Origin: Bacillus pumilus
Lineage (GTDB): Bacteria; Bacillota; Bacilli; Bacillales; Bacillaceae
DNA length: 64,000 nt
Direction: 5' to 3'
Assembly (NCBI RefSeq): GCF_900186955.1
Contig: NZ_LT906438.1
Coordinates: 310,001-374,000 of the forward strand
Positions 46,614 to 58,100 of this stretch are shown here, in pieces. Every line of letters begins with the position of its first letter. Positions within the stretch are counted from its first letter, which is position 1. Under the pieces are notes generated by a model. It saw only the letters and a list, made by a program, of their open reading frames with translations, searched no databases and was not told the origin of the DNA. Made by a program: the position numbers and the translations under genes.

Positions 46614-48683
46614 ATGGCGGATGTCTCTTATCGGCTTGGCATAGACATAGGCGGAACATTTACTGACTTATCGCTGATGAATGAAGCAACAGGGGCGCTA
46701 ACTGAACTCAAAACACCCACAGTGACTGACGACCCAGCTCAGGGAATTATCAATGGGCTAAAACTTCTAAAAGACAGAGGTGTTGATTTAGCTAAAATCC
46801 AATATCTCGTACATGGCATGACAATCGGTCTTAATACATTATTGCAGAGAAAAGGAGCAGATTTGGCCCTTTTTGTGACGGAAGGCTTTCAAGACATATT
46901 GTCACTACAGCGTTTACGATTACCCATTCCTTATGACTTCAATTCTCGTTTGCCAGAACCATTGATACCACGAAAGCATGTATATCCAATCTCTGAAAGG
47001 TTGATACACGATGGTACGATCAAAAAACCTCTCCATCTGCAGCAATTAGATCAGGCTGTCCAGCAGGTCATGTCTAAAGGGCTAGCAGGTATTGTCATTT
47101 CTTTTTTACATAGCTATCAAAATCCAGTTCATGAATTACAGGCAAAAGCCTATATCAAACACCATTATCCGCAATTAGAAGTCCTTACTTCATCTGAATT
47201 ATGGCCCCAAATGAGAGAATACGAGCGTACTGTGATGTCTGTTGTCAATTTGTATATCCAACCAAAGGTGAAACAGTATTTACAAACATTGAAAAGCCGT
47301 TTGAAAGAAGAAGGTGTACCAATTTCTCCATACATTACACAATCAAATGGTGGTTTAATGGATGCAGAAAGTGCAGCAACTTCACCTGTTAAAACACTTT
47401 TTTCTGGTCCGGCAGCTGGTGTCATTGGTGCGGCAAGAATTGCAGCCGCTGCAAACGAATCCAATCTGATCACGTTTGATGTGGGGGGGACGAGTGCAGA
47501 TATCTCCATTATTCAAAATGGACAGCCTACGATGGCTCAGTCAAATCAGCTTTCAGGTTTTCCGATCATTCTTCCATCTGTTGCGATGTATTCAATAGGG
47601 GCAGGCGGGGGTTCTGTTGCATGGATTGATCAGGGCGGGCTTCTCAAAGCAGGACCAGAATCAGTTGGCTCACAGCCGGGACCAGCTTCGTATGGAAAGG
47701 GAATGAAAGCCGCCTTAACTGACGCGTTCCTCATATGTGGTTATCTCAATCAAGAGCGTTTTGCCGGAGGACATTTACAACTACAGCTGTCCGCGGCGGA
47801 AAAGGCCTTTCAGCCAATTGCTGACCAGCTCAACAAAACGGTAGAAGAAGCGGCTGACCAGCTGATTCAAGTAGCTGTCGCCAATATGTACACAGAATTA
47901 AGCAATGTCATGGAGCAGCAAGGGTTTGACCCAAGAGATTTTAGTTTACTAGCGTTTGGCGGAGCAGGACCGGTTGTAGCGAATTTCCTTGCGCGAGAAA
48001 TTCATGCGAAAAACGTGGTCGTTCCTCCAAGTCCAGGAACATTATGTGCATTAGGTGCCCTGAACGCTGACTTTATTCATGATGCGGTACTGTCGAAGAA
48101 AATATGTTTAAAAGACTACTCGATAGATCAACTAAAAAAAGATTATGAGATGCTTTCTCGAAAAGCGACTGATTGGTTCAGCCAGCAGAACATTCAGCAT
48201 ATTAAACAGACATCCATACTATTATTGGCAGATGCACGTTATCAAGGACAAGCCTTTGAGATTGAATTACCATTATCAGCTGAATGGCTGAAGCAAGAAC
48301 AAGATATCCATCAACTCATTGAAGCCTTTCACAAACTACATCAGCGTCAATATGGTCATAGAGATGATCAGGCGAACATCGAGTTTACTCATTTACGAGT
48401 TCGAGTCATAGGCGAGACGCCGCCGCTGCCTTTCACAACTGTTCATGAAAGCAGCGGACAATCTTTGAAGCCACATGAATTTAGGCGAATCTTTATGGAA
48501 GAAAAAGAATATGAAGCAGCTATTTATTACAGAGATACTTTGTCAGTAGGCTCTGTCATTAATGGACCTGCCATCATTGAGCAGGATGATACGACAACAT
48601 TGATTCTGCCAAATTGGGCAGGCAGCATTGATCAATCAGGGAACTTGGTGATTTCAAGGGAGGCGGCTTTACATGAGAACTGA
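46614..48683 (+). CDS. hyuA: Hydantoinase/oxoprolinase subunit A
   Basis: 689 residues. YRLGIDIGGTFTDLSLM is the actin-like ATPase phosphate-1 motif and the later ITFDVGGTSADISII is phosphate-2. VHGMTIGLNTLLQRKG and LAFGGAGPVVANFLAREI are typical of HyuA/5-oxoprolinase/acetone carboxylase beta. It hydrolyses a cyclic amide with ATP, together with subunit B. ATG 46614 follows GTAGGAGGGAAG. The first gene of a six-gene operon. Confidence 0.92.
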   Translation: MADVSYRLGIDIGGTFTDLSLMNEATGALTELKTPTVTDDPAQGIINGLKLLKDRGVDLAKIQYLVHGMTIGLNTLLQRKGADLALFVTEGFQDILSLQRLRLPIPYDFNSRLPEPLIPRKHVYPISERLIHDGTIKKPLHLQQLDQAVQQVMSKGLAGIVISFLHSYQNPVHELQAKAYIKHHYPQLEVLTSSELWPQMREYERTVMSVVNLYIQPKVKQYLQTLKSRLKEEGVPISPYITQSNGGLMDAESAATSPVKTLFSGPAAGVIGAARIAAAANESNLITFDVGGTSADISIIQNGQPTMAQSNQLSGFPIILPSVAMYSIGAGGGSVAWIDQGGLLKAGPESVGSQPGPASYGKGMKAALTDAFLICGYLNQERFAGGHLQLQLSAAEKAFQPIADQLNKTVEEAADQLIQVAVANMYTELSNVMEQQGFDPRDFSLLAFGGAGPVVANFLAREIHAKNVVVPPSPGTLCALGALNADFIHDAVLSKKICLKDYSIDQLKKDYEMLSRKATDWFSQQNIQHIKQTSILLLADARYQGQAFEIELPLSAEWLKQEQDIHQLIEAFHKLHQRQYGHRDDQANIEFTHLRVRVIGETPPLPFTTVHESSGQSLKPHEFRRIFMEEKEYEAAIYYRDTLSVGSVINGPAIIEQDDTTTLILPNWAGSIDQSGNLVISREAALHEN

Positions 48684-50658
48684 TCCAGCAAAGCTTGAGA
48701 TGATGCGTAGTTATTTTAATGCAATTGCATCTGGCATGGGACATGTCATTGAGCGGACGTCTTTTACGACTTTCGTCAAAGAATCAGCTGACTTTGCGAC
48801 AGCGTTAGCCACGCCTTCTGGAGATTTCTTTGTTTATCCGAAGACAGTGGGTGTCACGATCTTTTTAGGGCTGAGTCTTAAAAAAGCGATTGAAGAGAGC
48901 GGACCGATGCAGCCAGGAGATATTATCATCACAAATGACCCTTATACGACAGATGGTTTAGCAACTCACCTGCCAGATGTCCATATCATTAAGCCGATTT
49001 TCGTAGATGGTGAAATTGTCAGCTTTGCTTGGTCTTTTGTTCATGTAAGTGATGTGGGCGGACTTGTGCCCTCAAGTATTTCACCGACAGCGACAGATGT
49101 TCATCAAGAAGGATTAAGAATACCGCCAGTGAAAATTTATGAAGGCGGAAAAGAGAATCAGGTCGTTCGTACTTTTTTAAGAGCCAACAGCCGAGCCAGT
49201 CATTTAAATGATGGGGATATCAATGCAATGATTGCTGCAGTAAATACAGCAGAAATTCGGTTAAAAGAAATGATCGGGAAATTTGGAATAAATGAAGTGA
49301 AACAAGGAATGATGGACCTCCTGAAACAATCTGAGGTTCGTGCAGGAAAGGTCATTGAAGCCATTCCGGACGGAACGAGTGAATTCGCTGATTATTTAGA
49401 TGATGATATGATCTCGGATGTGCCGATCCGGTTGAAAATCAAGTTAACGGTGAAAGGAAAGCGGCTGACACTTGATTTTTCTGAGTGTGACCCACAAGTG
49501 AAAACAGCTTTTAACCTTGTCACCAATGGTCAGAAGCATTCCTTCCTATATCAAGGATTGATTAATTACATTATTAGTAAAGATCCCTTTATACCGATTA
49601 ATGGCGGAATCACATATCCGATTGAAGTGATTTCACCTAAAGGGACGTTAGTGCATCCAGAATACCCGGCTTCTGTTGGTATTCGGCATTCAATTACGAT
49701 GAGGCTGTACAATGTCGTACTAGGCGCCATTGGTAAGCTGTTACCTGAAGCGGTGCCGGCAGCAGGTGCAGGTCAATCTGCAATTGTTGTTCTCTCCGTT
49801 CCTGATAATCAAACAGGTGGCAGGAAAATGTCTGTTGTTGAACCATTAGGCGGAGGCGGCGGTGCTCAAAATGGAACGGATGGAGTAGATGGTATTGATC
49901 ATTCGTCTGGCTTTTTGAAAAATACACCCATTGAGAGTTTAGAACAGCATATTGATATTCATGTTCACCGATATGAGCTTTTGCCAAACACAGGCGGAGC
50001 AGGAGAAAACAGAGGCGGACATGCGATTGGTTTGGAATTTGAAATGATCAAGCCTGAATCCATGGTGACCGCACGAGGGATGGAACGGATGAAGTTTCAG
50101 CCTTGGGGGCTAATGGGCGGCCGCGCGGGAGCTATCGGTGAGGTCAAGCTAGTCACAGCAAAAGGTGAAAAACAAGACCAGCCGAAAATAGATGTTCTAC
50201 GTCTTGAAAAAGGCGAAATTGTGCAATTGATATCACCAAGTGGAGGCGGCTGGGGAAATCCATTTGCAAGAGAGAAAGAAAAAGTCCTTCATGAAGTGGA
50301 AGCAGGTTTATTAAGTGAAGAAAGAGCGCTGCAGCAATATGGCGTTAAAGTGTATGTAGACCAAAATGAATGGAAGATTGATGAGGAGCAAACGAATCAG
50401 CTTCGTGAAAAGGGCAATCATCCTGCTAATACCATGTGGGATGTCGGAGAACACAGAGAAGCTTATGAGAGAGTATGGACGGATGAAGCTAGCAGCGAGC
50501 TTGCTGTGCGGCTGCGTTCCTACCCAGCCAATGAACGTACACATTATAAACATGCAGTTCATCAATATTTCAGTCATAGAAATGAGCCGTTAACAAAGAA
50601 AGATATTATTCAAGCACTTCGTCATATGGATGGACAAAAAGGGGGAAATGAATCATGA
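48673..50658 (+). CDS. hyuB: Hydantoinase/oxoprolinase subunit B
   Basis: 661 residues. MMRSYFNAIASGMGHVIERTSFTTFVKESADFATAL and IITNDPYTTDGLATHLPDVHIIKPIF are HyuB signatures, with the GGGGGAQNGTDGVDG and SPSGGGWGNPFAR loops near the end. It overlaps hyuA by 11 bp, so the pair is translationally coupled and forms one enzyme. Substrates of close relatives are N-methylhydantoin, 5-oxoproline or substituted hydantoins. Confidence 0.92.
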   Translation: MRTDPAKLEMMRSYFNAIASGMGHVIERTSFTTFVKESADFATALATPSGDFFVYPKTVGVTIFLGLSLKKAIEESGPMQPGDIIITNDPYTTDGLATHLPDVHIIKPIFVDGEIVSFAWSFVHVSDVGGLVPSSISPTATDVHQEGLRIPPVKIYEGGKENQVVRTFLRANSRASHLNDGDINAMIAAVNTAEIRLKEMIGKFGINEVKQGMMDLLKQSEVRAGKVIEAIPDGTSEFADYLDDDMISDVPIRLKIKLTVKGKRLTLDFSECDPQVKTAFNLVTNGQKHSFLYQGLINYIISKDPFIPINGGITYPIEVISPKGTLVHPEYPASVGIRHSITMRLYNVVLGAIGKLLPEAVPAAGAGQSAIVVLSVPDNQTGGRKMSVVEPLGGGGGAQNGTDGVDGIDHSSGFLKNTPIESLEQHIDIHVHRYELLPNTGGAGENRGGHAIGLEFEMIKPESMVTARGMERMKFQPWGLMGGRAGAIGEVKLVTAKGEKQDQPKIDVLRLEKGEIVQLISPSGGGWGNPFAREKEKVLHEVEAGLLSEERALQQYGVKVYVDQNEWKIDEEQTNQLREKGNHPANTMWDVGEHREAYERVWTDEASSELAVRLRSYPANERTHYKHAVHQYFSHRNEPLTKKDIIQALRHMDGQKGGNES

Positions 50659-51740
50659 AAAGAAGATTAATCACTATTTTTGCAGGTGTTTTATCAATGA
50701 TTCTACTGCTGACAGCTTGCGGTGGGAATGGACAGGATCAAGGTAAACAGCAGCAGACTGTAATCGTTGGCGTATACGGAGGCGATTGGGAAAAGAATAT
50801 CAAACCGATCCTCGAAAAGTTTGAAAAAGATACGGGAATTAAAGTCCAAACCGTCTCTGGTGCGGATTCTGAATGGTTTACAAAATTAAAAGCGTCAAAT
50901 GGTAAAAATCCACCGTATGACCTGCTTATTTTACAGCCTGATACGATTCAAAGAGGCATTGCAGCAAACGTTCTTGCGCCTATCGATGAAGATCAAGCAC
51001 CGAATGTCAAAAAACTTTACCGTTCTGTTCAAAAGAAGCTCACTGTTGATGGAAAACAATATGCAGCAGGCTTTAGTATGGGTCAGCTTGGAATTGCTTA
51101 TCGAAAAGACCTCGTAAAGCAGGAACCAAACAGCTGGACAGACCTATGGAGCAGTCAGCTAAAAGGGAAGGTAGCGATTTCATCCCCGACTTATTCAGCC
51201 GGGCTGCAATTTTTCTCTGCGCTTGTTCATGCTCAAGGGGGGACAGAATCAAATCCTAAGGATATTGATAAAGCCTTTAAAAGCCTTTCGCAATTAAAAG
51301 GGCATGTAGCTGCTTTTCCAGACAATCCAGGGTCTATTCAAACCTTGTTAGAACGTGGTGACGTCGCAGCAGTTCCATATTGGGATGGACGAGCATTTGC
51401 ACTTGAAGAAGAAGGAATGAATATTGGTTTCTCATATCCGAAAGAAGGCGCTGTTGCAGCAGTTGCGAGCTGGGCTTTAACGAAGGGAAGTCAGCATGAA
51501 GAAGCGGCTTACAAACTATTAAACTATTTAAGTGGAAAAGAAGCTCAAGAGGCTTTCTCGGCAGTATCTTATTATGGCATGTCGAATTCTGATGTGAAAT
51601 ACGGTGACAAGATTAAGGGGAAGGTCAAGGTTGGAGAGAATTATTATAGCAAGCTGACTTGGGTAGATTACGAAACAGCAACTTCGGAGCTGGGCAATTG
51701 GACAAATCGATGGAACGAAGTATTAGGCGGAGGAAAATAG
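50655..51740 (+). CDS. ABC transporter substrate-binding lipoprotein (PotD-like)
   Basis: 361 residues. The lipobox is LLTAC (Cys about residue 22). VIVGVYGGDWEKNIKPILEKFEKDTGIKVQTVSGADSEWFTKL is typical of family-1/PotD-type spermidine/putrescine-like binding proteins. It overlaps hyuB by 4 bp (ATGA), which ties transport to hydrolysis. The ligand is probably the hyu substrate, a cyclic amide or a related nitrogen compound, rather than a polyamine. Confidence 0.85.
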   Translation: MKRRLITIFAGVLSMILLLTACGGNGQDQGKQQQTVIVGVYGGDWEKNIKPILEKFEKDTGIKVQTVSGADSEWFTKLKASNGKNPPYDLLILQPDTIQRGIAANVLAPIDEDQAPNVKKLYRSVQKKLTVDGKQYAAGFSMGQLGIAYRKDLVKQEPNSWTDLWSSQLKGKVAISSPTYSAGLQFFSALVHAQGGTESNPKDIDKAFKSLSQLKGHVAAFPDNPGSIQTLLERGDVAAVPYWDGRAFALEEEGMNIGFSYPKEGAVAAVASWALTKGSQHEEAAYKLLNYLSGKEAQEAFSAVSYYGMSNSDVKYGDKIKGKVKVGENYYSKLTWVDYETATSELGNWTNRWNEVLGGGK

Positions 51741-51748
51741 GTGATCGT

Positions 51749-52840
51749 ATGAGTGGAATCCATTTAGAACATATTAGCCAGCATTTCGGCGAGCAGATTG
51801 CTCTTAACGATGTCAGTCTTACGGTGAATGAGGGGGAGTTTTTCTCCCTTCTTGGTCCTAGTGGCTGCGGGAAATCAACGTTATTAAACATCATTGGCGG
51901 TTTTTTAGAGCCAACAAAAGGTGTCGTCTATATTGGTGATCAGAATGTGACGAATTTACCGCCTTATCAAAGAAAAACGGGTATGGTTTTTCAAAGCTAT
52001 GCACTCTTTCCGCATCTGACCGTATTTGATAATGTGGCGTATGGGTTAAAGGTTCAAAAGAAAAAGAAGGCAGAAATTAAAGAGAAGGTAATGGAGAGTT
52101 TGTCTCTTGTGCAATTAGAAGCGTTTGCGAAACGTATGCCGCATCAATTAAGTGGTGGACAGCAGCAGCGGGTAGCGATTGCAAGGGCGCTTGCGATTCA
52201 GCCATCTGTTCTTCTTCTTGATGAACCGCTCAGCAACCTAGATGCAAAACTAAGAAAAAATATGCAGACAGAGCTTCGAAATATTCAAAGGAATGTCGGA
52301 ATTACCACCATTCTCGTGACCCATGATCAAGAGGAAGCATTAAGTCTTTCTGATCGGGTTGGGATTTTAGGAGAGGGGAAAATCCAGCAGATTGGGACGC
52401 CTTTAGAGGTGTACCGCCAGCCGAACAATCGATTTGTTGCTGAATTTATCGGACAAGTGAACCTATTTGAGGCGGTCTATGATGAAGCGAAAGCTGCATT
52501 TATCGTTCCTCATTTAATCCAGTCAAACGGGCAGGAAGTTCAATTAAAGGCAGCGGCACACCAAGAGAAGAAGGAGAAGCATTTACTCATGCTCCGTCCG
52601 GAAAGAATCAACATATCTTCTGAGCGGGAAGACATTCAGTCCAACCATGTATCAGGTGTGCTGACTGATGTCAGTTATATTGGTCACTCATTACGTTTGG
52701 TGGTGGGGCTCGATAGCGGTGAAATGATTGTTCATGCTTCTGATGCAGCATTTCCAGAGCTACCGAAAGCTGGAGAAGCTATTCATATCAATTGGCAGCC
52801 TGAAGATATCGTTTTCCTAGATTCGAAGGTGCATACGTGA
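51749..52840 (+). CDS. ABC transporter ATP-binding protein (PotA-like)
   Basis: 363 residues from ATG 51749. Walker A is GPSGCGKST, the signature LSGGQQQR, Walker B VLLLDEPLSNLD and the H-loop THDQEEAL; a C-terminal TOBE regulatory domain follows. It powers the two permeases downstream. The frame opens at 51659 but the extension lies within the binding-protein gene. Confidence 0.93.
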   Translation: MSGIHLEHISQHFGEQIALNDVSLTVNEGEFFSLLGPSGCGKSTLLNIIGGFLEPTKGVVYIGDQNVTNLPPYQRKTGMVFQSYALFPHLTVFDNVAYGLKVQKKKKAEIKEKVMESLSLVQLEAFAKRMPHQLSGGQQQRVAIARALAIQPSVLLLDEPLSNLDAKLRKNMQTELRNIQRNVGITTILVTHDQEEALSLSDRVGILGEGKIQQIGTPLEVYRQPNNRFVAEFIGQVNLFEAVYDEAKAAFIVPHLIQSNGQEVQLKAAAHQEKKEKHLLMLRPERINISSEREDIQSNHVSGVLTDVSYIGHSLRLVVGLDSGEMIVHASDAAFPELPKAGEAIHINWQPEDIVFLDSKVHT

Positions 52841-53709
52841 TGCGTATCAAGAAAAAGAATCAGCGATTTCATTGGTTCATGCTGCTGCCGGCGTGTTTGT
52901 TTCTTGTTGTATTTCTTCTAGCGCCGCTTGTGATGATGTTCGTGCTCAGTTTTCGTGATGTGGATTCAATGATGAACACATTACAAACGTATAGCTTTTC
53001 TCAATATATTCATGTGTTCACGACAGATGCGTATGTGAAGGCGATTGGAAGTACAGTGTGGGTAGCCTTACAGACAACGGTGATTTGTTTATTGATGGCA
53101 TACCCTGCGGCATACGTGCTCGTCAAGGCACCTCATCCGCGTCTGCGGGCATTTTTCTATATCTTACTTGTCTCGCCGCTTTTGACAAGCGTTGTGATTC
53201 GGACATTTGCATGGATTGTCCTTCTTTCACAAAATGGTCTGATCAATGGCATGTTATTAGATTTACATGTGATTGAGAAGCCGCTCTCTATGCTGTGGAA
53301 TATGAATGCGGTGATTATTGCTTATGTCCAGGTCATGCTGCCTTTTGCAGTGCTGCCTATTGCGACGAGCTTAACTGATATGGATCGTCATTTACGATCG
53401 GCTTCTATGAGTCTAGGAGCTGGACGAATTCGAACCTTCTTTCATGTGACCTTTCCATTGACCATTCCAGGGATGGTGACTGGGGCTATTATTGTCTTTT
53501 CGCTGGCGGCTGGGAGCTATATCACTCCGCTCTTAGTCGGCGGAAGAATGCAGCCGCTGCTACCGCTGTCTATTTATCAGCAGGTCATGCAGGTGTATAA
53601 CTTGCCTCTTGCTGCAGCGATGTCCTTTACGTTATTGGTTTGTGTGCTTGTGGTGGTCAGTTTATTAAGCTATCTATTGAAGCGCTGGGAGGCGAGGATG
53701 CATGCGTAA
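52840..53709 (+). CDS. ABC transporter permease 1 (PotB-like)
   Basis: 289 residues, about six spans, with the EAA-type loop SLTDMDRHLRSASMSLGAGRIRTFFHVTFPLTIPGMVTGAI. The ATG overlaps the TGA of the ATPase gene (TGATG); GTG 52837 is also possible. It forms the channel with permease 2. Confidence 0.9.
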   Translation: MRIKKKNQRFHWFMLLPACLFLVVFLLAPLVMMFVLSFRDVDSMMNTLQTYSFSQYIHVFTTDAYVKAIGSTVWVALQTTVICLLMAYPAAYVLVKAPHPRLRAFFYILLVSPLLTSVVIRTFAWIVLLSQNGLINGMLLDLHVIEKPLSMLWNMNAVIIAYVQVMLPFAVLPIATSLTDMDRHLRSASMSLGAGRIRTFFHVTFPLTIPGMVTGAIIVFSLAAGSYITPLLVGGRMQPLLPLSIYQQVMQVYNLPLAAAMSFTLLVCVLVVVSLLSYLLKRWEARMHA

Positions 53710-54505
53710 AAAATCATTAGGTGATCGCTTGCTTTCCATCCTGATTTGGACTGCTGGGTCATTGGTTTATCTCTTTTTGACCATACCTGTTCTTGTCATT
53801 GTCCTATCTGCTTTTAGTCCAAATGCCTTTCCTGAATTTCCGCCGACTTCGTTCTCTGTTCGTTGGTTTCAAGAGGTCGTGTCGAATCCAGAATGGATGG
53901 AGTCTCTGCGTATCAGTGTGATTTTGCTATTCATCGTAACGCCTCTCACGGTTCTTTTAGGCACGATGGCTTCGTATGCTTTAGCAAGGCTTTCCTTTAA
54001 GGGAAAAGAGGCGATTCAAGCCTTCATTTTGTCACCTCTTATGATTCCTCAAGTAGTGTTAGGGATTGCCATGCTCTATTTGTTTACGGCTATGGGGTTT
54101 ACGGGATCTTTGTGGGCGCTTGTCATAGGTCATGTCATCATTGGCTTTCCCTATGTGGTTCGAACAGTAGGTGTCAGTGTCTCGAATTTGGATCCGCGGC
54201 TTGAGCTAGCTTCAATGAATCTTGGCGCAGGACCCATTCGCACATTCTTTCGAGTGACGCTGCCTTTGATAAAGCCAGGAATTATTGCAGGTGGGGTATT
54301 TTCTGCCGTGACGTCATTTGGGGAAATATCGATCAGTTTGTTCGTTTCCTCTCCCCAAACGATTACGATTCCCGTCAGGACGTTTAATTACATTGAGCAA
54401 ACCTTTGATCCGAGTGTCAATGCGATATCTGTCATATTTATTATCATTTCTATCATTGCGTTGCTCATTATTGAAAAAACAATTGGCCTGTCTAAGGTGA
54501 TGTAA
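53702..54505 (+). CDS. ABC transporter permease 2 (PotC-like)
   Basis: 267 residues, about six spans, EAA loop SNLDPRLELASMNLGAGPIRTFFRVTLPLIKPGIIAG. It overlaps permease 1 by 8 bp. It is the last gene of the hyu operon. Confidence 0.9.
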   Translation: MRKKSLGDRLLSILIWTAGSLVYLFLTIPVLVIVLSAFSPNAFPEFPPTSFSVRWFQEVVSNPEWMESLRISVILLFIVTPLTVLLGTMASYALARLSFKGKEAIQAFILSPLMIPQVVLGIAMLYLFTAMGFTGSLWALVIGHVIIGFPYVVRTVGVSVSNLDPRLELASMNLGAGPIRTFFRVTLPLIKPGIIAGGVFSAVTSFGEISISLFVSSPQTITIPVRTFNYIEQTFDPSVNAISVIFIIISIIALLIIEKTIGLSKVM

Positions 54506-54523
54506 ATATAATGAAGAAACAAG

Positions 54524-54555
54524 GGAGCTGTCATTTGAAATGGCAGCTCTTTTTG
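54524..54555 (+). terminator. Terminator of the hyu operon
   Basis: GAGCTGTCATTT / AAATGGCAGCTC (one G-T pair) with short loop, followed by TTTTTGTG. Confidence 0.92.
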
Positions 54556-54651: not shown

Positions 54652-54816
54652 TTTCGGTCATATTTGCAAAATTTAAGGGAAAACATGAAATTTTTGCGGT
54701 ATTTAGTCGATTCTTTTCGGTTGAACGCAACTATTATTAGTTATTTTCGGTAAATATCGTAAATTATTATGTGATTCATTCGGCATAACGCATGAATCTT
54801 TACACCCATTTTTCGG
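54652..54816 (+). promoter_or_regulatory. Array of ComA-type half-sites upstream of srfAA
   Basis: TTTCGG, TTGCGG or ATTCGG half-sites start at 54652, 54694, 54715, 54745, 54778 and 54811. Two form full boxes against the ComA consensus TTGCGG-N4-CCGCAA: TTTCGG-TTGA-ACGCAA (54715-54730, 10 of 12) and ATTCGG-CATA-ACGCAT (54778-54793, 8 of 12). Their centres are 63 bp apart, six helical turns. ComA~P activates srfA in B. subtilis in the same way. Confidence 0.65.
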
Positions 54817-54849
54817 TGAAAAAAACAATAATTTCATATAAAGTGGACG

Positions 54850-54884: not shown

Positions 54885-54970
54885 AGGCAAATCTATGGAA
54901 ACGTAGAGACGCAAAGCCATGTCCTAAGGTAAATGTTGCTTTTTTACTAAGGTCGCCAGGTTACCGAATC
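54885..54970 (+). ncRNA. c-di-GMP-I (GEMM-I) riboswitch aptamer in the srfAA leader
   Basis: The order of elements is that of the GEMM-I aptamer: GGCAAA, then a perfect stem TCTATG-GAAA-CGTAGA capped by a GAAA tetraloop, then GACGCAAAGCC. A CCTAAGG segment corresponds to the tetraloop receptor, and a second arm pairs GGTAAA.. with ..TTTACT before the closing GTCGCCAGGTTACCGA. The match is to the remembered Vc2-type consensus (GCAAA..GACGCAAAGCC..GGTTACCG). It lies 145 bp upstream of the srfAA start codon and within its transcript. Confidence 0.88.
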
Positions 54971-54978
54971 AAAATGGG

Positions 54979-55012
54979 AGTCCCTCCGTTTTATTCGGGG
55001 TGGGCTTCTTTC
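54979..55012 (+). terminator. Terminator-like hairpin, riboswitch expression platform
   Basis: AGTCCCTCCG pairs with CGGGGTGGGCT (one mismatch, one bulge, wobble pairs), loop TTTTATT, followed by TCTTTCC. It directly follows the aptamer, as expected for a transcription-terminating switch. Confidence 0.55.
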
Positions 55013-55114
55013 CGTATTCTGTCTATTTTAATGAAATAGACTTGGTTCTTTTGATATAGAGGGTGCAGGGTTGTCACATTGGTGGAGAAAACATAGAAGA
55101 GGCGGAGGATGAAA

Positions 55115-58100
55115 ATGAATACAGTTTATTACCCCTTAACACATGCGCAAAAGCGAGTATTCTACACGGAAAGATTTTATCCAGGTACAAGTATTTCTAA
55201 TTTGGGTGGATTCGCCAGATTGAGATCGGTATCAGGTTTAGATCCATCTTTGGTCGTTGACGTGCTTCAAGCGTACATTCGCCAAACTGACTCCCTTCGG
55301 TTGAGGCTGGTGTATCGACATGAGCAGGAGGAGCCTGTTCAATATATCAAGCCTTATGAAGACAAGCCGATTCGCATGGAGAAGGGCTGGAGTGAAGAAG
55401 AAGTGAGGGCTTGGGCGAATGAACAAATCCGTGAGCCGATGCCGTTGATTGACAGCGCCTTGATTGAATTTACGGTCTTTCAAATCAGTGATCAAGAGTG
55501 CTGGCTGTTTTGTAAAGCACATCATATTGTGGCGGATGGTATCTCCATTATCTTAATGGGAAATCGCATCATCGACTTATACCAGGACATGTTGCAGGGG
55601 GTAGACATCTCACCGGTTGAGGAGATTTCCTTCGTTGACCACATCATGAGTGAGCAAAGCTATGAAACTTCTAAACGATTTCAAAAAGACCAAACTTTTT
55701 GGAATGAGCAATTTGCCAATATTCCAGATTTCGCTTCTTTAAAACCGCATAAGGGATACGAGATGAGTTTACATGCGGAGCGATTTTCAGGGGATATTCC
55801 AGATTCTTTGAAGGAGAAACTTCGTGCGTTTTGTGAGGAGCAGAAAGTCAGTATGCTCTCGATGTTTATGTCCACTGTTTATGTATATTTACATCGTTTT
55901 AGCGGTATGGAGGATGTTGTCCTTGGAACCTTTATGGGCAACCGAACGAATGCCAAAGAAAAAAAGATGATTGGTATGTTTGTTTCCACCATTCCGATGC
56001 GTGCATCTGTTCAGGGGTCGCAAACATTTCTTGATTTCGTCAAACAGGTCATGGCGGATCAAATGAAGATCTTGCGTCACCAAAAGTACCCTTACAATCT
56101 TCTCATGAATGATTTGCGAGAAAGAGAAGGGTTTACAGGACGCCTTTTTGATATTTCTTTAGAATACCAGGTCATGCAGTGGCAGAAAAAAGAGAATCTG
56201 TCTTTCATTACTGAACCGATCTTTAGCGGGAGCGGAATGAATGATATTTCCATTCATGTAAAGGACCGCTGGGATACTGATACATTGACCATTGATTTGG
56301 ACTACCGTACAGATGTATTCACCGAAGAAGAAATCAGTAAGATGTTTGATCGATTCTTAATCATACTAGAAGCGGCAGTCTCCCAGCCTGACCAGCTGAT
56401 CGGGAAACTCCCTTTACTTCCACCAGATGAACAAAAGGAACTGCTTCAATTATCTGAGAGAAAACCTTTTGAAAAGCCAGCTGAAAAGCCGGTTCACCAT
56501 CTGTTTGATGAGACAGCCAATAAGTATGCAAAGCGAACAGCTGTTGTAACAGAAAATGGAGCATTTACTTATGGAGAACTGTTTCAAAAGGCAGAAAAGC
56601 TGGCGCGTTTTTTACAAATGAAAGGTGTCTCGCGTGATGTGCCTGTTGCTGTCTTAATGGATCGGAAGGCAGAGGCTATGGTGTCGATCTTCGGCATATT
56701 AAAGGCTGGCGGGGCGTATGTACCGATTGATCCGGCATTACCTGAGGAGCGTATTCAATATATTGTGGAGGATTCTGGTGCTTCCATTGTGTTAACAGAG
56801 GAATCGTTCGTTTCAACATACCGTGCCCTCTCGGAAAAAATGGTCGTGCAGCAGCAAATCGCATTAGATGATGAACTGCTGCCTCAGCTTGTAGATCAGT
56901 CGGTACCAGAGGATTTGGCTTATATGATTTATACATCGGGGACGACTGGAAAGCCGAAGGGCGTCATGATTGAGCATCTTCAGCTGCATCATTTGGTCCA
57001 TGCCTTGCATCATGAGATTTATGAAGAGGCGAGTGAGCTTCAAATGGCGCTTCTTGCACCATTCCATTTTGATGCATCGGTGAAACAAATCTTTGCTGCG
57101 CTATTATTTGGGCATACGCTTCATATCATCCCGCGAGAAACAACGAGAAATGGTGTTCAATTAGCGGCTTATTATAAAAAACATCAAATTGAGGCAGCGG
57201 ACGGAACACCGGCGCATGTGCAGCTTTTACTTGCAACGGAATTAGATGGGCTGTCCTTGAGGCATATGTTAGTTGGGGGAGAAGCATTGCCTGCGAAAGC
57301 AGCATATTCTCTTATCGAAGCGGTTCGGATGAGTGAGCCTGATTTTACTTTGTGGAATGTGTATGGTCCGACTGAGACGTGTGTCGATGCGGCGGTTCAT
57401 CGCCTAGAACTAAGTGAGCTGCGCGAATCCTCTGAACAGCAGCGTTATGTGTCAATCGGAAAGCCGCTCGGTCATCACCGTCTTTACATTTTAAATGACC
57501 ATGATCAATTACAGGTACAGGGGGCTGCTGGAGAACTGTACGTTGCAGGGATAGGTGTTGGACGAGGCTATGTGAATCAGCCTGAATTGACGGAGAAAGT
57601 ATTTACGGCAGATCCATTTTCTCCAGATGAGCGGATGTATCGAACAGGGGATCTAGTCAGATGGCTTCCTGATGGCACAATTGATTATCTTGGCAGAATG
57701 GATGATCAAGTGAAAATAAGGGGTTACCGCATAGAAACAGGCGAAATTGAAGCAGTGATGGAGCAGGTAGATGGAGTGGATCAAGCTGTCGTACTTGTTG
57801 TCGAAGAAGCGGACGGGGAAAAGGCGTTAAGTGCTTACTATCAAGCTCGTCATGAAAATGTGTCAGTTGACATACTTCAAGCCGCTATCAAACATCAGCT
57901 ACCAGCTTACATGATGCCGCTCTATTTCAAAGAGCTCGATGCATTTCCACTCACAGTCAGTGGCAAAGTCGATCGTCGTGCACTTGCTGCCCTAAAAGGA
58001 GATAAAGCCGTTCAAGCTGTTTATGCTGCGCCTAGAAACAGTCTCGAAACGAAGCTTGTGCGTTTGTGGGAAGAAATTCTTGGTCAAGAGAAGATTGGTA

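Follow-up and report, generated by a model that had tools for sequence, protein, structure and literature searches.

A close known counterpart of the element considered here is Cd1, an OFF switch of the flagellar operon of Clostridioides difficile that belongs to the same aptamer family, RF01051. Its aptamer and terminator coexist, and both are in competition with an antiterminator that includes the 3' strand of the aptamer (PMC9262584, in its accessible part). Class-I switches are described as terminating transcription in C. difficile, and Bc2 of B. thuringiensis is an ON switch (PMC6366702, accessible part). Bc1 and Bc2 of the B. cereus group likewise share the aptamer family and have leader terminators, but the genes behind them encode a chemotaxis receptor and a collagen adhesin rather than a lipopeptide synthetase, Bc1 has two terminators, and Bc2 works in the ON sense (PMC11218506 and PMC6366702, each as far as its text is open).

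The layout found in the leader of srfAA, the lipopeptide synthetase gene of Bacillus pumilus, resembles that of the OFF switch Cd1 and not that of the ON switch pilM (as the accessible portion of PMC9262584 presents them). It differs from Cd1 in its target, an operon for lipopeptide synthesis whose promoter has ComA-box-like repeats, and in having a platform sequence of its own. I propose that this riboswitch attenuates transcription of the srfAA operon and is most likely an OFF switch, a reading to which I give about three chances in four. The aptamer class is known; a srfAA or lchAA target was not found reported, and the OFF mechanism is predicted here. A search of the open literature (subscription papers, supplements and the GEMM discovery tables lay outside its scope) found no report of a c-di-GMP riboswitch at the surfactin, lichenysin or pumilacidin operon. 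Papers that mention surfactin or lichenysin together with c-di-GMP or a riboswitch make no link between them in their accessible text (PMC9943018, PMC9800504, PMC12029170, PMC11720072, PMC12096827, PMC10535407). Neither di-GMP nor riboswitch occurs in the available portion of a 2024 review on how surfactin is regulated (PMC10988940), the main text of a B. licheniformis RNA-seq paper, so far as it is open, has no lchAA, lichenysin or di-GMP (PMC3871023), and the main text of a survey of RNA-motif regulons, to the same extent, lists GEMM without surfactin, lichenysin or pumilus (PMC3766115).

The DNA analysed, called the window below, is the whole stretch of 64,000 nucleotides from B. pumilus (NZ_LT906438.1, positions 310,001 to 374,000), and coordinates are counted from its first letter. 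When it was compared by cmscan with 4227 Rfam families, c-di-GMP-I was the sole family to exceed its cut-off: on the + strand, 54876-54968 matches RF01051 with 71.7 bits against a cut-off of 35 (E 4.2e-12) and spans the full model, positions 1-87 of 87. Across the genome (3,855,667 bases, with 150 of 284 first-look candidates scored) this is the sole RF01051 match found. The original prediction of a GEMM-I aptamer in the srfAA leader is therefore borne out, down to the details it named: P1b is capped by a GAAA tetraloop (54898-54901), the other arm has the CCTAAGG receptor, and both the GACGCAAAGCC core and the GGTTACCG end are found in the sequence. The predicted span, 54885..55012, holds the element, but its start does not stand, since the aptamer begins 9 nt further upstream. 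The pocket has CC at 54964-54965, invariant in 23/23 leaders, and these two C residues are presumably ligand contacts, judging from the structure of Vc2.

That the pairing of the aptamer is conserved, with compensatory changes, across two clades can be read from an alignment of the 23 leaders that bear a riboswitch (A1), on which all the pair counts of the aptamer are based. Standard pairs fill 96.3% of its 483 aptamer pair cells and two-sided changes occur in 27 of them, levels reached by 0/500 shuffles in either case, and when partners are slid by 1-3 columns only 28-40% of pairs are standard. Two-sided changes touch 4 aptamer pairs, which 16/500 shuffles match, and further pair types show no excess in the 23 leaders (9, against 10.7 in shuffles). 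One aptamer pair, as mapped, is open in 16/23 leaders. The element in the srfAA leader, judged by its sequence, is a c-di-GMP-I riboswitch of the known class, real and conserved, and should sense c-di-GMP.

The last upstream gene ends at 54505 and is followed by a terminator-like hairpin at 54521-54553 (terminator scan); the region 46614-54505 holds hydantoinase/oxoprolinase A and B genes and then the genes of an ABC transporter (binding protein, ATPase, two permeases). On the other side of the leader lies the srfAA orthologue, with its ATG at 55115 on the + strand, 146 nt past the 3' end of the aptamer. It is preceded by a Shine-Dalgarno-like GGAGG (55104-55108) and translates openly to 64000, where it runs off the window; in the whole genome the frame is 3574 aa long, and its first 1000 residues contain condensation and AMP-binding domains (Pfam).

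Upstream of the aptamer, the promoter region can be aligned with its srfAA counterparts in the B. subtilis group and the B. licheniformis group. The aligned parts are a ComA-box-like repeat close to the promoter (TTCGGCATAACGCATGAA, 54779..54796, + strand), a TTTTTCGGTGA stretch, and a promoter core, CATATAAAGTG (54835..54845, + strand), which was found by pattern match, is a putative -10 region by alignment, and serves as the anchor for measuring leaders. The core pattern CAT[AT]TA[AG]A[GC]TG is present in 40/40 leaders, and the CATATAAAGTG core is absent from a generic sigma-70 scan listing of the window. From the core to the start codon it is 263-286 nt in the B. pumilus group as against 273-339 in the B. 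subtilis group. A further copy of the repeat, TTTTCGGTTGAACGCAA, at 54714..54730 on the + strand, is predicted from its position and from a likeness to ComA boxes. Both repeats are named after ComA-box motifs and the alignment, and the promoter claimed earlier to be quorum-controlled is here a promoter region with putative ComA boxes. Downstream, on the + strand between the terminator described below and the start codon, are a second AU-rich hairpin (55021-55041) and a conserved box, TTGGTTCTTTTGATATAGAGGG (55042-55063). The hairpin is partly deleted in one leader, L017, and the GGTTCTTTTG box occurs in 16/16 leaders of the B. pumilus group, 5/17 of the B. subtilis group and 0/7 of the B. licheniformis group.

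The hairpin that had been suspected just past the aptamer is there. On the + strand, 54976-55009 folds into a stem-loop of 13 bp with one bulged U, a putative terminator. The run of U after it is weak, being poor in the window strain. The stem is conserved in all 23 leaders. With the one bulged base of the B. pumilus-group rows skipped, 273/276 cells (12 pairs in 23 leaders) keep their pairs, against at most 171/253 in slid versions. The fifth pair varies by species, being C-G, G-C, A-U or G-U, and is unpaired in two leaders; the eighth is U-G, U-A or C-G. Stem energies range from -16.3 to -23.2 kcal/mol. A generic terminator scan misses this hairpin in the window, where it lists only 54521-54553, and misses the homologous one in L010, but it does list the homologue in the B. 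licheniformis-group leader L009.

The aptamer ends at 54968, the terminator starts at 54976, and they have no base in common. It is because of this that the layout is like that of an OFF switch of the Cd1 type. What connects the two is an alternative pairing, the antiterminator, that uses 54964-54969 at the 3' end of the aptamer. These six bases, CCGAAU, are complementary to AUUCGG at 54993-54998, half of which lies in the loop of the terminator and half in its 3' arm, and both sequences are kept in 23/23 leaders. The loop's AUU is identical in all 23 even though the terminator has no need of it. In the window the helix is extended by AAAA-UUUU past one bulged base, giving strands of 54964..54974 (CCGAAU, a C bulge, AAAA) and 54989..54998 (UUUU, AUUCGG), both on the + strand; 5/7 B. 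licheniformis-group leaders extend it by AAA-UUU. By chance, 1.3-4.5% of the shuffles of any one leader would contain AUUCGG exactly (five leaders). The energy of the duplex between aptamer tail and platform is no better than that of shuffles in the four leaders compared (288 to 1037 of 2000 as good), nor is the fold of the whole leader unusually stable against shuffles (z -0.55).

The antiterminator hairpin has an energy of -11.7 to -14.2 kcal/mol. When transcripts of increasing length are folded, the antiterminator is ahead, before the 3' arm of the terminator completes, by up to 8.1 kcal/mol in L001, 8.2 in L010 and 6.9 in L009. Its lead lasts for 11 lengths in a row in L010 and for 10 in L009, and ends there when that arm is nearly complete. 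Once the arm is complete, the terminator is ahead by about 4-7 kcal/mol in L010 and L009, and in the window strain the antiterminator still leads, by only 0.1-1.5 kcal/mol. Since the two structures are nearly equal in the finished leader of the window and the terminator wins in the other two, control must be kinetic. A decision made during transcription, with c-di-GMP holding CCGAAU within the aptamer, is a plausible model of it.

The scheme would run as follows, with ligand binding, sign, quorum input and physiological role all being what I infer from the leader. A transcript would start at the promoter with ComA-box-like sites, and the aptamer would be the first part to fold. If c-di-GMP is low, then CCGAAU would be available to AUUCGG once the latter has been transcribed, the antiterminator would keep the terminator open, and srfAA would be read. 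If c-di-GMP is high, the ligand would retain CCGAAU in the aptamer, the terminator at 54976-55009 would form, and transcription would stop. The operon would then be an AND gate, requiring both a quorum signal and low c-di-GMP, and for that reason lipopeptide would come from motile or dispersing cells rather than from sessile ones. As for the messenger, the genome has 4 GGDEF and 3 EAL domain matches, with GG[DE]EF kept in 3/4 of the GGDEF domains. A link through a Spo0A box to the phosphodiesterase gene at L045, whose product I take to resemble YkuI, was considered and dropped: there is no TGTCGAA-type box, and no feedback loop is claimed.

The same parts might be read with the opposite sign, the ligand favouring read-through, so that lipopeptide would be made in sessile cells with high c-di-GMP. 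An ON switch of class I does exist among Bacillus relatives, namely Bc2 (PMC6366702, in the part accessible), and the antiterminator of the finished window leader is no less stable than the terminator, so energies alone leave the sign unfixed. The architecture speaks otherwise. Nothing keeps aptamer (to 54968) and terminator (from 54976) from forming at the same time, and the pairing that blocks the terminator also takes up the ligand-pocket end of the aptamer. I regard the ON reading as unlikely.

Still less probable are two readings that deny the aptamer its ligand. One might suppose a plain attenuator, with expression held at a constant level by the terminator whatever the amount of c-di-GMP, the aptamer having decayed and become blind. 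Decay is possible among these leaders, as the B. subtilis group retains only a short relic-like stretch, but in the 23 leaders the core columns are invariant, the stems have compensatory changes, and the scores are 69.0-84.4 bits, far above the cut-off of 35; I would be greatly surprised if this were the answer. Least credible to me is an aptamer that senses another cyclic dinucleotide, for example 3',3'-cGAMP, as the GEMM-Ib type does. The position that I take to separate the two types is G20 in Vc2 numbering and corresponds, by my assignment, to window 54886, which is G and not A when mapped from the Rfam alignment, as it is in 23/23 leaders. What can be said for cGAMP is that the two types have a common structure (PMC9262584, accessible part).

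Then there is the distribution of the proposed OFF switch. With Infernal and stricter filters, RF01051 is found in 23/44 genomes of the genus, in 25 matches, 23 of which lie directly upstream of srfAA or lchAA orthologues. SrfAA orthologues occur in 16 genomes of the B. pumilus group, 7 of the B. licheniformis group and 17 of the B. subtilis group, and the element stands before the gene in 16/16, 7/7 and 0/17 of them. The counts agree with two points of the original prediction, the presence of GEMM elements before lichenysin genes (put forward tentatively at the time) and the lack of such an element at srfAA of B. subtilis. Conservation of the leader in the B. pumilus group, which it had named as a check, is seen in all the srfAA-bearing genomes of that group. 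As to the lack of the element, Rfam searched at a permissive setting with all 17 srfAA loci of the B. subtilis group, leaders included, gave no c-di-GMP-I match up to E 5, nor did five named loci in a like search. Four genomes (G006, G008, G029 and G034) have no SrfAA orthologue, the best identity being 28-33%, and the element is in 0/4 of these. G034 is without gene and element despite its position inside the B. pumilus clade in the rpoB tree.

The srfAA leader of B. subtilis and its relatives has the aligned promoter and ComA-box-like region and a similar length, and in place of a c-di-GMP-I match it has a relic-like stretch of 15 nt. The core of the B. pumilus group used for comparison has 15 bases, GAAGAAAAAGGCAAA. 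Its best match in each of the 17 B. subtilis-group leaders falls 37-45 bases from where the promoter core begins, and in the 23 leaders with a riboswitch the core itself lies at 35-46. The match is 14/15 in one leader (L084), 13 in five, 12 in eight and 11 in three. When the 110-base stretch is shuffled, 0-33 of 1000 are as good in fourteen leaders and 57, 75 and 151 in the other three, and as the leaders are related these tests are not independent. Scored against the corresponding core of the B. licheniformis group, the relic is weaker, with 9-12/15, a result equalled by 2-813 of 1000 shuffles. Beyond this stretch of the 5' core, nothing else of an aptamer is recognisable in the B. subtilis-group leaders. 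The relic-like stretch suggests that the aptamer was lost there. The best-kept copy, that of L084, is in a genome (G009) whose srfAA orthologue is interrupted near its start, showing as two tblastn pieces and a stop.

Transfer of srfAA between the two groups that bear the riboswitch is disfavoured by the SrfAA tree, which was built from N-termini (23 + 16 sequences, midpoint root, the interrupted copy of G009 left out). Each group is monophyletic, and the B. licheniformis group pairs with the B. subtilis group, leaving the B. pumilus group outside; mean identity is 57.2% between the paired groups and 51.6-52.3% from either to the B. pumilus group. In the search for orthologues, identity over the N-terminal 510 residues was 81-100% for the B. 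pumilus group and about 48-50% for the other two. The rpoB tree, for which G008 was taken as root and which carries no support values, groups B. pumilus with B. subtilis instead. Under either tree, the evidence favours one ancestral element that was lost in the B. subtilis group, rather than transfer or two gains, because element, terminator and alternative pairing are the same in both riboswitch-bearing groups, and because of the relic. I lean, then, towards the view that c-di-GMP control by riboswitch was ancestral for the surfactin/lichenysin/pumilacidin operon, a two-input gate of quorum signal and low c-di-GMP, which the B. pumilus and B. licheniformis groups would have kept and the B. 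subtilis/B. amyloliquefaciens branch would have lost, with a relic left behind.

The branch that would have lost the element is the one in which regulation of the surfactin operon was worked out. If the proposal is true, then the model organism B. subtilis is the exception, because it lost the element, and the synthetase transcript of two entire species groups is a direct target of the messenger behind the sessile/motile switch. For lichenysin and pumilacidin, both useful surfactants, ideas of regulation are mostly carried over from B. subtilis, and the proposal predicts that lowering c-di-GMP or removing the leader element should raise lipopeptide production. B. subtilis, which gave no RF01051 match, offers a clean host for studies of the leader.

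Two matches within the genus have other neighbours. A second element in G041 (L002, 84.6 bits) precedes a gene for GTP cyclohydrolase I, and a second one in G027 (L006, 78.1 bits) precedes a gene for a DUF5667 protein. At the level of the family, RF01051 is found in 59/80 genomes. Among 28 loci (L002, L006 and L115-L140, best match per genome), the 24 with an ORF of at least 80 aa have no SrfAA-like next gene; other synthetase targets are possible among the remaining family matches. A putative c-di-GMP riboswitch before sinI has already been reported in B. methanolicus (PMC4342826, in its accessible text). At seven of the loci a c-di-GMP-I element lies 5' of a SinR-like gene, which follows about 260-280 nt past the aptamer: L126, L128, L130, L131, L137 and L140 in genus g2, and L138 in genus g3. 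With four of these loci read, Pfam confirms SinR-type domains at L126 and identifies the 43-aa ORF between aptamer and sinR as SinI.
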